Positions 40,894 to 56,919 of a DNA stretch of 64,000 nucleotides are shown here, piece after piece. The DNA is taken from NCBI RefSeq assembly GCF_900105925.1, contig NZ_LT629791.1, positions 5,178,001 through 5,242,000 of the forward strand, written 5' to 3'. The first letter of the stretch is position 1, and every line of letters starts with the position of its first letter. The DNA is from Jiangella alkaliphila. GTDB lineage: Bacteria; Actinomycetota; Actinomycetes; Jiangellales; Jiangellaceae. Below the pieces are notes generated by a model. That model searched no databases. It was not told the origin of the DNA and worked only from the letters and a program-made list of their open reading frames with translations. Made by a program: the position numbers and the translations under genes.

Positions 40894-41811
40894 TCAGCGG
40901 TCCGGCGGCAAGGGCTCTGGGCGGGCGCCGCGGGTGGCGCCCGCCGACGCGATCACCACGCAGATCACCGCGATCCACTGCGACCAGCTCAGCGACTCCT
41001 GCAGCACGATGAGGCCGATGAGCGCGGCCATCGCCGGTTCGAGGCTCATCAGGATGCCGAACACCCGCGGCGGGATCTTGCGCAGTGCCTCCAGGTCCAC
41101 CGTGTACGGGACGACGGACGACAACAGCGCCACGCCCAGCCCCGCGATCAGCACCCAGGGCTGGATCAGCGCCGTTCCGCTGTCCGCCACGCCGATGGGC
41201 ACTGCCACCACCGCCGCGACGGCCATGCCCAGCGCCAGGCCGTTGCCCTCCGTGGTGTGACGGCCCAGCGCGGCGCCGACCAGGATGTACAGGCCCCAGA
41301 ACGCGCCCGCGGCGAGGGCGAACAGCATGCCGACGGGGTCGAGGTCGCCGCGTCCCTCCATCAGCAGGACCACTCCGCCCGCGGCGAGCACGGCCCAGAA
41401 CGCGTCCAGCCAGCGCCTCGACCCGGCCAGCGCCACCGCCAGCGGCCCGAGGAACTCGATGGTCACCGCGATCCCCAGCGGCAGCCGGTCAAGGGCCAGG
41501 TAGAAGCACAGGTTCATCAGGCCGAGGATCACGCCGTAGCTGAGCACCACGGTCCAGGTGCGACGGTTCAACCGCACCGACGGCCGCCACAGCAGCATCA
41601 ACACCGCCGCCGCGAAGAACAGCCGCAACGCGACCGTCCCGAAGCTGCCCACCTCGTCGAACAGGCCCTTGGCCAACGCCGAGCCCAGCTGGACGCTGAC
41701 GATGCCGAGCATGACCAGCGCCGGCGGCGGGATCGCGTCGAGGGTGCGTCCGGCCACCGCGGTCAAGGAGTACCGGGAGGACGGGCCGGGTTCGGTCCCG
41801 CCGGTGTTCAT
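40894..41811 (-). CDS. EamA/RhtA-type permease
   Basis: 305 residues with about ten helices in two EamA halves: VMLGIVSVQLGSALAKGLFD to GVVLLMEGRG and GMLFALAAGAFWGLYILVG to LSWSQWIAVICVVIASAGA. LPLGIAVTIEFLGPLAVAL and VLSSVVPYTVDLEALRKIPPRVFGILMSLEPAMAALIGL match RhtA-like exporters of amino acids. Substrate is uncertain. Confidence 0.88.
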   Translation of the reverse strand: MNTGGTEPGPSSRYSLTAVAGRTLDAIPPPALVMLGIVSVQLGSALAKGLFDEVGSFGTVALRLFFAAAVLMLLWRPSVRLNRRTWTVVLSYGVILGLMNLCFYLALDRLPLGIAVTIEFLGPLAVALAGSRRWLDAFWAVLAAGGVVLLMEGRGDLDPVGMLFALAAGAFWGLYILVGAALGRHTTEGNGLALGMAVAAVVAVPIGVADSGTALIQPWVLIAGLGVALLSSVVPYTVDLEALRKIPPRVFGILMSLEPAMAALIGLIVLQESLSWSQWIAVICVVIASAGATRGARPEPLPPDR

Positions 41812-41863
41812 GGTGGCATCGCGTGGAGTATCGACGATCAGACGCCCCGCGTCACGCGAATTC

Positions 41864-41954
41864 CCGCCCCCTCGCCGCGTTGATCATGGAGAAGGTCGGG
41901 TCCCAAGGCGATCCAGAGCCGACCTTCTCCATGATCAACGCGGCGAGGGGGCGG
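41864..41954. repeat. Perfect 36-bp inverted repeat, TTGATCATGGAG family
   Basis: Arms 41864-41899 and 41919-41954 are exact reverse complements around 19 bases. The core GTTGATCATGGAGAAGG is at 41879-41895. It covers the last six codons and stop of the DinB-ankyrin gene, so that protein's C-terminus is encoded by one arm. Likely terminator, but longer and more perfect than needed. Confidence 0.75.
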
Positions 41955-42825
41955 ACGAGCGGAGGTGGGCGGCCACGTCGGGGTGCTCGAAGAAGTCGGC
42001 CCAGCCGGCGGCGTCGAGGTGGAAGCGGTCGTCCTTCAACGCGACGTCGGCACCGTGCGCGACCAGCAGCTTCACCACGTCCAGTTCGCCGGCGCCGGCG
42101 GCGTAGTGCACCGCCCCGTCCACCGGAGCACCGGCCGTCACCAGCGCCCGCACGACATCCCAATGGTGCAGGCCGGCCGCCTCGGCGACCAGCGTCGGCC
42201 GCACGTCAGCACCCGACGCGCCCGCCAGCGCCGTCGCATCGCCGCGCAGGGCCGCTGCCACGACCGGGTCGCGCTGGTCCGCGTACGCCCGGTACAGGTC
42301 GCGCAGCAGGCAGATCTCGGCGCCGTGCGCCATCACCTCGCGGTTCACGTGCAGCACGAGCCTGGCCATCGAGTCCTCGGCGTACGGCCCGCCGCGCGGC
42401 CCGAGCGGCCGCAGCATCGCCTCGTCGTCCAACCCCGCGACCCCCGACCGCCACAGCGCGTAGGCCGAGTCCAGCAGCTCCAGCGCCCCCTCGGCCGTCC
42501 CGGGCAGGGCCGACGGCCAGTGCCGGGCGTCGTACATGTCCGCGTCGGCGGCGGCCGGGTCGAAGAACGCCCGCGCCCGTTTGCCGAGCACGTCCCGCCC
42601 GACGTGCATCGCCCGCCAGGCGATCGTCGTGACGGGCGGGAGCGGCGGCTCGGGCCGGACGGACTCCAGCTCCAGCGCTGCGTACGGGCCGGTCGGACGC
42701 AGGCTCCACGCCCCGTCGACCGGCTCCCACCGGTATTCGTCGTCGGTCAGGCCGGCCAGCCGCGGCCGGAAGTGGACGGTCCAGTAGAACTCGAGCTGGT
42801 CGAGCAGGTCGGTACTCCACGTCAT
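41935..42825 (-). CDS. DinB-like/ankyrin fusion protein
   Basis: 296 residues from MTWSTDLLDQLEFYWTVHFR. The first 185 residues match the DinB/DUF664 helical-bundle family (RWEPVDGAWSLRP, TTIAWRAMHVGRDVLGKRAR, VLHVNREVMAHGAEICLLRD, with metal-type histidines). The remaining part is two ankyrin-like repeats (GLHHWDVVRALVTAGAPVDG, AGELDVVKLLVAHGADVALKD). This fusion occurs in some actinobacteria and has no known function. It is divergent from a YafY-type regulator. The last residues SSAPSPR come from a repeat arm. Confidence 0.82.
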   Translation of the reverse strand: MTWSTDLLDQLEFYWTVHFRPRLAGLTDDEYRWEPVDGAWSLRPTGPYAALELESVRPEPPLPPVTTIAWRAMHVGRDVLGKRARAFFDPAAADADMYDARHWPSALPGTAEGALELLDSAYALWRSGVAGLDDEAMLRPLGPRGGPYAEDSMARLVLHVNREVMAHGAEICLLRDLYRAYADQRDPVVAAALRGDATALAGASGADVRPTLVAEAAGLHHWDVVRALVTAGAPVDGAVHYAAGAGELDVVKLLVAHGADVALKDDRFHLDAAGWADFFEHPDVAAHLRSSAPSPR

Positions 42826-42850
42826 GTCGTCCACCGTAGAACCCAAATAG

Positions 42851-42863
42851 GACACCGTCTGTC
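42851..42863. promoter_or_regulatory. Inverted repeat in the DinB/YafY divergent promoter
   Basis: GACACCGTCTGTC (GACA-N5-TGTC) lies in the 51-base gap between the two divergent genes, 13 bases before the YafY ATG. Regulators of this family are known to control neighbouring DinB-like genes; binding here is inferred. Confidence 0.45.
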
Positions 42864-42876
42864 ATATAAAGGAGAG

Positions 42877-43821
42877 ATGCGCGCCGAACGCCTCGTCCAG
42901 ATCATCCTGCTGCTGCAGACACACGGCCGGCTGACGGCGGGCGAGCTGGCCCGGCGCCTGGAGGTGTCGGCGCGGACGGTGCAGCGCGACCTCGACGCGC
43001 TCAGCGCGGCCGGCTTCCCGGTGTACGCCGACCGCGGCCGGGCCGGCGGGTGGTCGCTGGCGGCGGACTACCGCACCCGGCTGACCGGCCTCTCCCCCGC
43101 CGAGACCGCCGCGCTGTTCGTCGCGTCGACGGCGCACGTGCTGGCCGACCTGGGCCTGGACGCGGCGGCGGGTACGGCCGAGGCGAAGCTGCTGGCGACG
43201 GTGCCGGCGCACGCCCGGCGGCACGCCGACCTCGCCCGCGAGCGGGTGCTGGTCGACCACGCCGACTGGATGGAGACGCGCGAGCCGTCGCCGTGGCTGC
43301 CGGTGCTGCAGCGGGCGGTCTGGGACGACACCCGCGTCCACCTCACCTACGGCAGCGCGCCGCACGCCGTCGCCGTCGAGCCGCTCGGGCTGGTGGCGAA
43401 GAAGCGGTCCTGGTACCTCGTCGCCCGCAAGGCGACCGGCGAGTTCCGCACCTACCGGGTCGACCGCATCGTCCACGCCGACGGCACGGACGAGCGGTTC
43501 GAGCGGCCGGACGCCTTCGACCTCACCGAGCACTGGCGGCACCACAGCGACCGCTACTTCGCCGAGCTGCGCCGCTACCCCGTCAGGCTGCGAGTCCGGG
43601 GCTACGCCGCCACCCGCCTGCGCTGGGCCCGCAACGCCGTCATCGACGCGCAGACGGCACCGGACGACGACGGCTGGGCCAACGTGAGCATGACGTTCGA
43701 GTCGGCCTACGAGACCCGCGTCTACCTGCTGGGTCTGGCCGGCGACGTGGTCGTGCTGGAACCGGCCGACCTCCGCGACGACATGCGCCGCGCGGCAACG
43801 GAGTTCCTGGCGCAGAACTAG
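42877..43821 (+). CDS. YafY/PafC-like HTH-WYL regulator
   Basis: 314 residues, ATG preceded by AAAGGAGAG. The HTH_11 at residues 1-55 (RLVQIILLLQTHGRLTAGEL, then VSARTVQRDLDALSAAGFPV) is followed by the WYL domain (VHLTYGSAPHAVAVEPLGLV, then KKRSWYLVARKATGEFRTYRVDRI) and a WCX tail. WYL domains sense nucleic acids or other ligands. It probably controls itself and the divergent DinB-ankyrin gene. Confidence 0.9.
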   Translation: MRAERLVQIILLLQTHGRLTAGELARRLEVSARTVQRDLDALSAAGFPVYADRGRAGGWSLAADYRTRLTGLSPAETAALFVASTAHVLADLGLDAAAGTAEAKLLATVPAHARRHADLARERVLVDHADWMETREPSPWLPVLQRAVWDDTRVHLTYGSAPHAVAVEPLGLVAKKRSWYLVARKATGEFRTYRVDRIVHADGTDERFERPDAFDLTEHWRHHSDRYFAELRRYPVRLRVRGYAATRLRWARNAVIDAQTAPDDDGWANVSMTFESAYETRVYLLGLAGDVVVLEPADLRDDMRRAATEFLAQN

Positions 43822-43856
43822 CGCGAGTCAGGATCGGGGCTCTGCGGTTCGTTCCA

Positions 43857-43906
43857 TGATCATCAACCTTCCACGTCGTGATAGCAGCCAAGAAGGTTGA
43901 TGATCA
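43857..43906. terminator. Inverted repeat between convergent genes
   Basis: TGATCATCAACCTTC at 43857-43871 is repeated inverted at 43892-43906 with a 20-base loop, between the YafY gene and the kinase-like gene. It covers the stop codon of the latter and can act in both directions. Its core differs from the TTGATC-TGGAG group. Confidence 0.6.
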
Positions 43907-44737
43907 CGGCGGGGTGGCCAGCTCGTCGAGGGCGCGATGGCCGCGCTTGACCACCCCTGGAACGACATCGTGGCGCCCGTGACGGATGGGGATCTCGAGC
44001 ATGTGGAGGATCTGTGTCGCTGCGAGCACCGCCGCCCCCTCCCAGCCGACCAGGTCGAGGATTCTCGTCCACAGCCGCCTTCGGACATCGTCCAGCAGCG
44101 GATCCTGGAAGGTGTACCACACGAGGGTGGTGAGATCGGTCGCCCGCGTGCCGCTACCTGCGTTCCCGATATCCACGACCGCCACCACTGCTCCGTCACG
44201 GACCAGGACATTGCTGGGGGTTGAGAGATCGGCATGGACCATGTCAGGTGCCTCTCGTGGTGGTGGGACATCCTGCCCGGCGACAGCCGATTCCTGACCG
44301 GTGGCGACCCGCCAGGCGTACGACCAGTGGTCGTAGGGCTCGGAGGCTTGGCCAGCCTGGAGTTCGATGATCTCCATCAGCTGCTCAACGAGGGACGGGG
44401 TCAGCTCTGGCGCGGGAGCCGCGTCAACGAAGTCCATCAGATGCCATACATGAGCGGCTGTGGCCCCCACTCCGAGCCAGGCCGGGGTGGGATAGCCGCG
44501 CCCACGCATGTGCTCGACCACTCTCTGGGCTCGCAACGTCTCGTCCAGGTGGTTGGGGTGTGCCCGGGGCACTGCTTTGAGAACTGCATCTGCCCTTCCG
44601 GCCAACTGGACGCGCAGGGCACCCCCATTGACGCCTCCGGGTAGGCGACTGAGAAGAGTGACCTCTGCCCCGGCCACGCTGGCCACGTCGTCCAGGACCT
44701 CGGCCGGCAGCTCTTCGGGATGGGTCCCCTGGTTCAT
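43904..44737 (-). CDS. APH-like phosphotransferase
   Basis: 277 residues. The catalytic loop MVHADLSTPSNVLVRDGAVVAVVDIGNAG has the H-x-D-L-S-x-x-N and D-x-G pattern of aminoglycoside and choline kinases; DAVLKAVPRAHP carries the ATP lysine. The true substrate is unknown. Base composition is less GC-rich at third codon positions than its neighbours, hinting at later acquisition. Confidence 0.8.
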   Translation of the reverse strand: MNQGTHPEELPAEVLDDVASVAGAEVTLLSRLPGGVNGGALRVQLAGRADAVLKAVPRAHPNHLDETLRAQRVVEHMRGRGYPTPAWLGVGATAAHVWHLMDFVDAAPAPELTPSLVEQLMEIIELQAGQASEPYDHWSYAWRVATGQESAVAGQDVPPPREAPDMVHADLSTPSNVLVRDGAVVAVVDIGNAGSGTRATDLTTLVWYTFQDPLLDDVRRRLWTRILDLVGWEGAAVLAATQILHMLEIPIRHGRHDVVPGVVKRGHRALDELATPP

Positions 44738-56707: not shown

Positions 56708-56919
56708 GACTGACAGCCTATGACCTCGCACCGACAGCGATGGCACCGCGGCGTTCGCCGTCGGCGTGACCGGGCGGCCGCCCGGCATTGTGCCGCGATG
56801 TGCCGACAATTCTCACACCTCCCTCGGCCGAACAGCCGGAACAAATCGGAATCGCACCGACCCATTAGCCGCCCGCAACTAGGTTCGGGAGAAATTCGAG
56901 ACAGGGCGGGAGGCATGGA

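Follow-up and report, generated by a model that had tools for sequence, protein, structure and literature searches.

In Mycobacterium smegmatis, the homodimeric WYL activator SiwR is encoded divergently from genes of the DinB_2 and DUF664 families (MSMEG_1359 / MSMEG_1357-1356; PMC10693628). The siwR-dinS pair has a 19-bp imperfect palindrome, and the WYL domain of SiwR binds single-stranded DNA (ssDNA); activation needs the -26 region and arginines of the WYL domain, and dinS is induced by H2O2, zeocin and mitomycin C (PMC10693628). The authors left open the question of why dinS lies outside the PafBC regulon (PMC10693628). Here we describe a locus of similar layout in a 64,000-nucleotide stretch (hereafter the window) of the 7.7-Mb, single-contig genome of Jiangella alkaliphila, in which a gene for a DinB_2 protein with an ankyrin domain (dinB-ankyrin) stands opposite a gene for a helix-turn-helix (HTH)-WYL-WCX regulator. 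Our results suggest that the two genes probably form a divergent, damage-responsive module, in which a WYL homodimer would activate a leaderless dinB-ankyrin mRNA upon DNA damage.

Results

The dinB-ankyrin gene occupies positions 41935-42825 of the minus strand (296 amino acids; ATG at 42825, stop codon at 41935-41937) and the WYL gene positions 42877-43821 of the plus strand (314 amino acids), with a gap of 51 bp (42826-42876) between them. The first protein matches DinB_2 in Pfam at residues 60-171 (E 9.8e-14, 52.3 bits against a cut-off of 24.8) as well as ankyrin repeats (PF00023, E 8e-7; PF12796, E 5e-6), and the second matches HTH_11 (5-58), WYL (141-201) and WCX (233-309). A first-pass annotation of the window had described a DinB-like and ankyrin fusion that faces a WYL regulator over 51 bases with a GACA-N5-TGTC site, and the open reading frames, the Pfam domains and the site were all confirmed. 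The WYL protein carries R33/R37 (HTH) and R191/R194 (WYL) at positions where SiwR-type proteins have arginines; these residues were equated with the essential ones of SiwR (PMC10693628) by their pattern, without recourse to the M. smegmatis sequence.

The site belongs to an imperfect palindrome, the operator ATATGACA-GACGG-TGTCCTAT (42847-42867, read on the minus strand, towards dinB-ankyrin), whose core GACA-N5-TGTC spans 42851-42863. A bare GACA-N5-TGTC within 51 bp is unsurprising by chance; it is conservation that gives evidence that the site matters. In all 16 Jiangellaceae gaps compared, ATATGACA, TGTC, TATT, the -10 frame TAnnGT and the C preceding it are identical, and the variable columns are those of the operator spacer (commonest base in 12-15/16) and the others after the palindrome (7-14/16). 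The -10 hexamer of dinB-ankyrin, TACGGT (42833-42838, minus strand), starts 16 nt past the first T of TGTC (42854) and ends 7 nt before the ATG, and the transcript would be leaderless. By eye, CATATA at 42863-42868 of the plus strand, within the distal operator arm, can be taken as a putative -10 for the WYL gene; most of the relatives that were read have CATATT instead. Such a position predicts autorepression. When the 7.7-Mb genome was searched for the operator with up to three mismatches, the window site and two others, with three mismatches each, were found. Because no second operator with fewer than three mismatches exists in the genome, the WYL protein appears to be a dedicated regulator of dinB-ankyrin.

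The distance between the near half-site and the -10 hexamer is fixed across many dinB promoters. Counted from the first base of the half-site to the start of the hexamer, it is 16 nt to an nAnnnT hexamer in 50 of 51 distinct dinB homologues that have a GAC-N7-GTC palindrome 15-60 nt before the start codon, against at most 6/51 at each of the remaining offsets between 6 and 27; after removal of sequences at least 75% alike, the figure is 29/30. In some of the 51 palindromes the near half-site is CGTC or GGTC instead of TGTC (L124, L126, L175, L210), and the sole miss is a probably unrelated palindrome at -49 in L210. The half-site lies 28-30 nt from the start codon in 49/51, and for this reason the dinB mRNAs are likely to be leaderless. 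A strict palindrome was present in 39 of the 43 WYL-paired loci, including L131, which is beyond the range of -15 to -60 and so outside the 51; four loci without a strict GAC left arm (L018, L160, L179, L189) by eye also show TGTC-N12-nAnnnT and were not counted. No -35 element stands out in 50 of these dinB promoters, the best match to TTGACA having 1-3 of six letters (on average 2.36, compared with 2.18 at random positions).

The same register can be read at promoters of other WYL activators. PafBC motifs have been published as tTGTCRgtg-8 nt-TannnT and TGTCGG-N10-TAnnnT, both of which place the hexamer at 16 nt (PMC5656591, PMC8151990). The Jiangella genome contains 34 PafBC-type sites, against 0 for a reversed-pattern control, and a putative adjacent pafB-pafC pair, named by eye (L067/L062). 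Thirty of the 34 sites were retrieved as loci, and in 21 of the 29 distinct ones read, TGTC is followed at 28-30 nt by a start codon that opens a frame of at least 60 codons. One such motif, TGTCGGTG-N8-TAGGCT (56715-56736, minus strand), precedes uvrC in the window; TGTC lies 29 nt from the GTG start (56707), the same distance as at dinB-ankyrin, and the uvrC mRNA is probably leaderless. For DriD of Caulobacter crescentus, the authors describe sites at one distance from the -10 and call a G at -14 conserved (PMC12340889). With sites and hexamers placed by us, two of the three promoters printed there have this G and show, 16 nt from the half-site, the hexamers CAATCT and CAAGGT. At didA the DriD site matches at 12/16 on both strands, and the strand pointing to the gene was taken. 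The third promoter, that of bapE, is ambiguous, since the best consensus matches (8/16) occur at four places, one of which was picked for its fitting spacing, and its hexamer as read, CAAGCC, does not end in T. The extension of the register to the own promoters of other WYL genes is weaker: a good palindrome was found in 15 of 35, with a -10 at 16 nt in eight of these (mean of shuffles 0.05).

Orthology of the window WYL protein with SiwR, expected at first, was rejected on phylogenetic evidence. In a tree of 88 WYL proteins (a quick search with no bootstrap, and with long branches flagged), a SiwR-type group holds 34 rows (Shimodaira-Hasegawa-like approximate likelihood ratio test, SH-aLRT, 97), and the window protein falls in a separate group of 51 rows (98). 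The SiwR-type group was named from its gene order (WYL, DinB_2, then mycothiol-S-transferase/DUF664 or Glyoxalase_6), without the M. smegmatis SiwR sequence, and the SiwR-like layout was established with Pfam on two loci and by eye on the remainder. The surveyed loci of this layout carry palindromes such as TAGGACCGAAACTGTCCTA, of 19 bp. In the tree of 113 DinB proteins, the SiwR-type DinBs form a group of 58 rows (99) and the window DinB lies in a different group of 37 rows (92), together with DinBs from Glycomyces, from Promicromonospora and from the genera with ankyrin-bearing forms. With length as the criterion for the ankyrin trait, three changes are needed on this tree. The Jiangella genome gave 17 WYL-domain matches, and six of these proteins fall within the SiwR-type group. 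At loci L133-L153, WYL regulators mostly of the window clade face genes that by eye, without a family search, are RidA-like, glyoxalase-like and alpha/beta-hydrolase-like, and several of these WYL genes have a 5-base-spacer palindrome and a -10 at 16 nt before the WYL gene itself.

The fusion was found in 12/12 Jiangella (in one split over two contigs) and 5/5 Phytoactinopolyspora in a survey of 22 genomes of the family; among the five genomes without it, two are incomplete (75 and 81%) and one has DinB alone. The WYL gene divergently adjoins dinB-ankyrin in 12/12 Jiangella and 4/5 Phytoactinopolyspora, that is, in 16/17 genomes. Five genera outside the family also possess such a fusion, namely Micropruina, Tessaracoccus, Ancrocorticia, Isoptericola and Krasilnikoviella; the gene of Ancrocorticia populi (L036:2992-3945) contains an internal stop codon, which indicates either a broken gene or a sequencing error, and was excluded from the DinB alignment (A1). 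The homologue set comprised 159 loci, reduced to 113 by requiring a readable start (absent from L052 and L053) and distinct residues 11-60. When scored by length, 23 of these 113 are fusions, from seven genera of Actinomycetes, a restricted range that agrees with the rarity supposed by the first-pass annotation.

In the window DinB group, 20 relatives have no adjacent WYL gene, and 12 of these have a PafBC-like half-site with TAnnnT at 16 nt under a lax threshold (GTC kept and at least 5/8 letters of TGTCRGTG). At 6/8 letters the motif is present in 8/20, and in three it is perfect (Promicromonospora L042 and L049; Glycomyces L051). Under the lax threshold, no spacing from 9 to 27 other than 16 gave a match except 20, with two, and in 300 shuffles the mean was 0.05 and the maximum 2. 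The 20 relatives stem from few lineages, mostly Glycomyces, so that the matches do not amount to 12 independent events, and even at 5/8 letters the motif was not found in the other 8/20. These eight include five of the six ankyrin-bearing relatives (Tessaracoccus, Ancrocorticia, Isoptericola, Krasilnikoviella and Micropruina L029), the sole carrier among the six being Micropruina L039.

The AlphaFold model of the full DinB-ankyrin chain has a mean pLDDT (predicted local distance difference test) of 92.2. A structure search with the whole chain was swamped by ankyrin and designed ankyrin repeat protein (DARPin) matches, and the DinB part was therefore modelled and searched separately. This part, a DinB_2 four-helix domain at residues 1-182 (42280-42825, minus strand) supported by Pfam, alignment and model (pLDDT 92.4), has H18, H74, H159, E163 and H167 invariant in 21 aligned DinB sequences, that of the window included; these residues are candidates for a three-histidine metal site. 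The top Foldseek matches of the domain model are the M. tuberculosis mycothiol-S-transferase structures 8fx9/8f5v (E 0.017 and 0.031, probability 1.00), and 8f5v, with Z 12.9, ties with other DinB-type structures. A profile search of the DinB part in Protein Data Bank sequences returned YfiT 1rxq alone, at E 0.29. Residues about 184-295 match ankyrin and DARPin structures; the ankyrin part, at about residues 186-292 (41950-42270, minus strand; Pfam), aligns with 2jab_C at Z 15.5 over 105 residues with a root-mean-square deviation of 2.0, and as modelled is probably a partner-binding tail.

The surroundings in the window include housekeeping genes (zwf, tpi, gap, uvrC). At 41864-41954, at the 3' end of dinB-ankyrin and including its stop codon, lies a palindromic hairpin of a dispersed genomic family, a possible terminator. 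The typical form of the element, GTTGATCATGGAGAAGGTCGG-N19-CCGACCTTCTCCATGATCAAC, has 107 exact arm matches genome-wide, counted on its 13-base core as 53 forward and 54 in reverse, against 0 for a control. Among 100 places listed, copies mostly occur in pairs 48 nt apart and some are single; across the 20 pairs that were read, loop sequences differ, loop length is nearly constant and the outer stem is not the same from copy to copy. An Rfam search of 41000-44000, which includes the window copy, gave no match. By eye, a second inverted repeat, TGATCATCAACCTT ... AAGGTTGATGATCA, is found at 43857-43906, 3' of the WYL gene and before a convergent APH-type gene.

Discussion

We suggest that the WYL protein, as a homodimeric activator, would sit on ATATGACA-N5-TGTCNTAT and cover the place of the missing -35 element, with one half-site at -26. 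When ssDNA or a similar damage ligand fills the WYL domains, housekeeping RNA polymerase would start the leaderless dinB-ankyrin mRNA, by activation as for SiwR, DriD and PafBC at promoters with equal TGTC-to-(-10) spacing. Bound there, the WYL protein would also mask the -10 of the gene encoding it, which should restrain its synthesis. The dinB-ankyrin product would be a four-helix member of the DinB superfamily, to which mycothiol-S-transferases also belong, with an ankyrin tail that probably serves to bind a partner protein. Likely functions of this product are damage repair or a detoxification that is linked to a low-molecular-weight thiol; from fold and regulation taken together, a mycothiol-linked detoxifying or repair role is suggested.

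The signal could instead be unrelated to DNA. In such a scheme, which overlaps with damage-dependent activation and differs from it in the signal, a small molecule or electrophile (thiol stress, an antibiotic) other than ssDNA would be the WYL ligand, and DinB-ankyrin would be a thiol-dependent detoxifying enzyme. The mycothiol-S-transferase at the top of the structural matches agrees with this, as do the RidA-like, glyoxalase-like and alpha/beta-hydrolase-like genes faced by WYL paralogues of the same clade. The slot before the dinB genes, on the other hand, holds a PafBC-like DNA-damage motif in 12/20 relatives without a WYL gene, yet in 1/6 of those with ankyrin, and we regard a non-DNA signal as somewhat unlikely.

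It has also been considered that the WYL protein represses dinB-ankyrin by blocking the -35 region and is released by a ligand, as WYL regulators in defence islands are. WYL repressors do exist (PMC9122601, PMC9122588), their contrast with activators is stated in PMC10693628, and the operator covers the -35 position. Repression is nevertheless unlikely, given that promoters without a -35 should be weak unaided, that the 16-nt register is that of known activators, and that the analogue serving a related dinB subfamily, SiwR, activates. That the two genes are adjacent without regulation, the WYL protein acting elsewhere and the palindrome serving another factor, would fit a pairing limited to two genera; it is very improbable in view of a palindrome of which the genome has no second copy with fewer than three mismatches, and of outer TA-rich arms that are gone in the one species lacking the WYL gene (L014), a single event. 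A phage-defence function is hardly credible: some WYL regulators reside in defence islands (PMC9122601) and the WYL protein matches PADLOC WYL models (E 3.5e-46), which are general for the family, whereas, in a scan confined to the neighbourhood, DinB-ankyrin and five proteins near it gave no PADLOC match at E 0.01, the surroundings include housekeeping genes and the locus is kept in two genera. The idea of a small stress-response module, put forward by the first-pass annotation, is supported by the position, the operator and the close analogy to SiwR-dinS, and its defence part finds no supporting neighbour among the proteins scanned.

Several observations weigh against damage-dependent activation or limit its reach. 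The function is assigned through architecture and promoter and not through orthology, as the window WYL protein lies outside the SiwR-type clade. Phytoactinopolyspora limicola (L014/L032) has dinB-ankyrin with no adjacent WYL gene, and its genome yielded no close relative of the window WYL protein (the best match has E 5.8e-54, whereas its four congeners reach 7e-124 or better). Upstream of its dinB-ankyrin the outer TA-rich operator arms are gone, and GAC-N7-GTC and TGTC-N12-TAGCGT are kept; to call the operator lost in this species would be too strong, since the outer arms alone are missing. Of the six DinB-ankyrin genes from other genera whose upstream DNA could be read, none has a relative of the window WYL gene beside it, so that the pairing, whose conservation had been proposed as a check, is kept in 16/17 Jiangella and Phytoactinopolyspora genomes and not outside them. 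Judged from their upstream sequences, these ankyrin-bearing genes of other genera mostly show no known damage promoter. For the protein, the Foldseek E-values of the DinB domain are weak, the best being 0.017, and PF04978 (mycothiol-S-transferase) is not among the Pfam matches of DinB-ankyrin listed up to E 1. The known WYL regulators of phage defence are described as repressors (PMC10693628, PMC11804915), and the authors of the DriD study state that activation differs between DriD and PafBC, so that equal spacing need not mean one mechanism. Finally, in the published account M. smegmatis without siwR shows no growth phenotype (PMC10693628), and the physiological importance of the module may accordingly be small.

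The module itself is modest; of greater interest is the fixed register common to several WYL activators. As a tentative proposal, which may or may not hold, bacterial WYL activators (PafBC, SiwR, DriD and that of Jiangella) could share one promoter code, with TGTC 16 nt upstream of the -10, a leaderless transcript and no -35, the slot having been frozen at dinB while the regulator was exchanged. The regulator would then be PafBC in Glycomyces, Promicromonospora and one of the two Micropruina, a SiwR-type WYL protein in many other actinomycetes, and a WYL protein of another clade in Jiangellaceae. If this is true, members of a related dinB subfamily would belong to the PafBC regulon, which bears on the question about dinS. 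It would be predicted that several kinds of WYL regulator use one half-site at a constant distance from the -10, and that dinB genes have moved between regulons through changes around that half-site. The DinB proteins of actinomycetes, which are abundant and poorly understood, would gain a damage-linked expression logic, and the binding partner of the ankyrin-tailed form could reveal what DinB proteins do.

Among described systems, SiwR-dinS is similar to the window locus in having an HTH-WYL-WCX regulator divergent from a DinB_2 gene, with a short gap and a palindrome reaching the -26 region. As in the SiwR type, the window palindrome sits between the -35 and -10 regions, and loci presumed to be relatives of SiwR share the GAC-N7-GTC core and the 16 nt to the -10. 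The two differ in that the window WYL protein is in another clade and its DinB in another subfamily with an ankyrin domain, in that no DUF664 or glyoxalase partner follows the window dinB, and in the arms, e.g. TTAGGACC in the SiwR type against ATATGACA here. The module of the window would appear to work like SiwR-dinS, with a regulator that is not a SiwR orthologue. PafBC has the same HTH-WYL-WCX architecture and a TGTC-N12-TAnnnT register, and differs as a heterodimer that acts on a non-palindromic TGTCRGTG at about 150 genes and does not bind DNA without RNA polymerase in the published accounts (PMC11804915, PMC5656591). In place of a pafB-pafC heterodimer and TGTCRGTG-N8-TAnnnT, the window has a single WYL gene and a dinB-ankyrin motif that agrees in 4/8 letters and lies within the palindrome. 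The structures of mycothiol-S-transferases and the DinB-YfiT superfamily (8f5v, 8fx9, 1rxq) resemble the DinB domain in the four-helix bundle and the conserved histidines and are its top structural matches; 8f5v and 8fx9 differ from it in sequence (15-17% identity over the structural alignments), and no ankyrin extension appears in the entry titles.

DriD belongs to another phylum and serves several target genes of the DNA-damage response; like the regulator proposed here it is a homodimeric WYL activator, with a site that overlaps the -35 (PMC12340889). Its 21-bp test operator, ATACGACA-N5-TGTCGTAT (of the type ATACGAC-N7-GTCGTAT), equals the window operator at 14/16 arm positions, and the distance to the -10 is equal in two of the three printed promoters as placed here. 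WYL-DinB pairs have already been described, and the idea of such a pair is less new than it had seemed in the first-pass annotation; the reliance of SiwR on the -26 region, like that of PafBC, is also known (PMC10693628). In the literature searched, neither the shared register nor the ankyrin fusion was found described, though the 2021 paper on sigma adaptation by PafBC and the paper on the DriD crystal structure may already comment on a common spacing. The present analysis contributes the precise register over a large set of promoters, another WYL clade, the relatives with PafBC-like motifs and the match to DriD.

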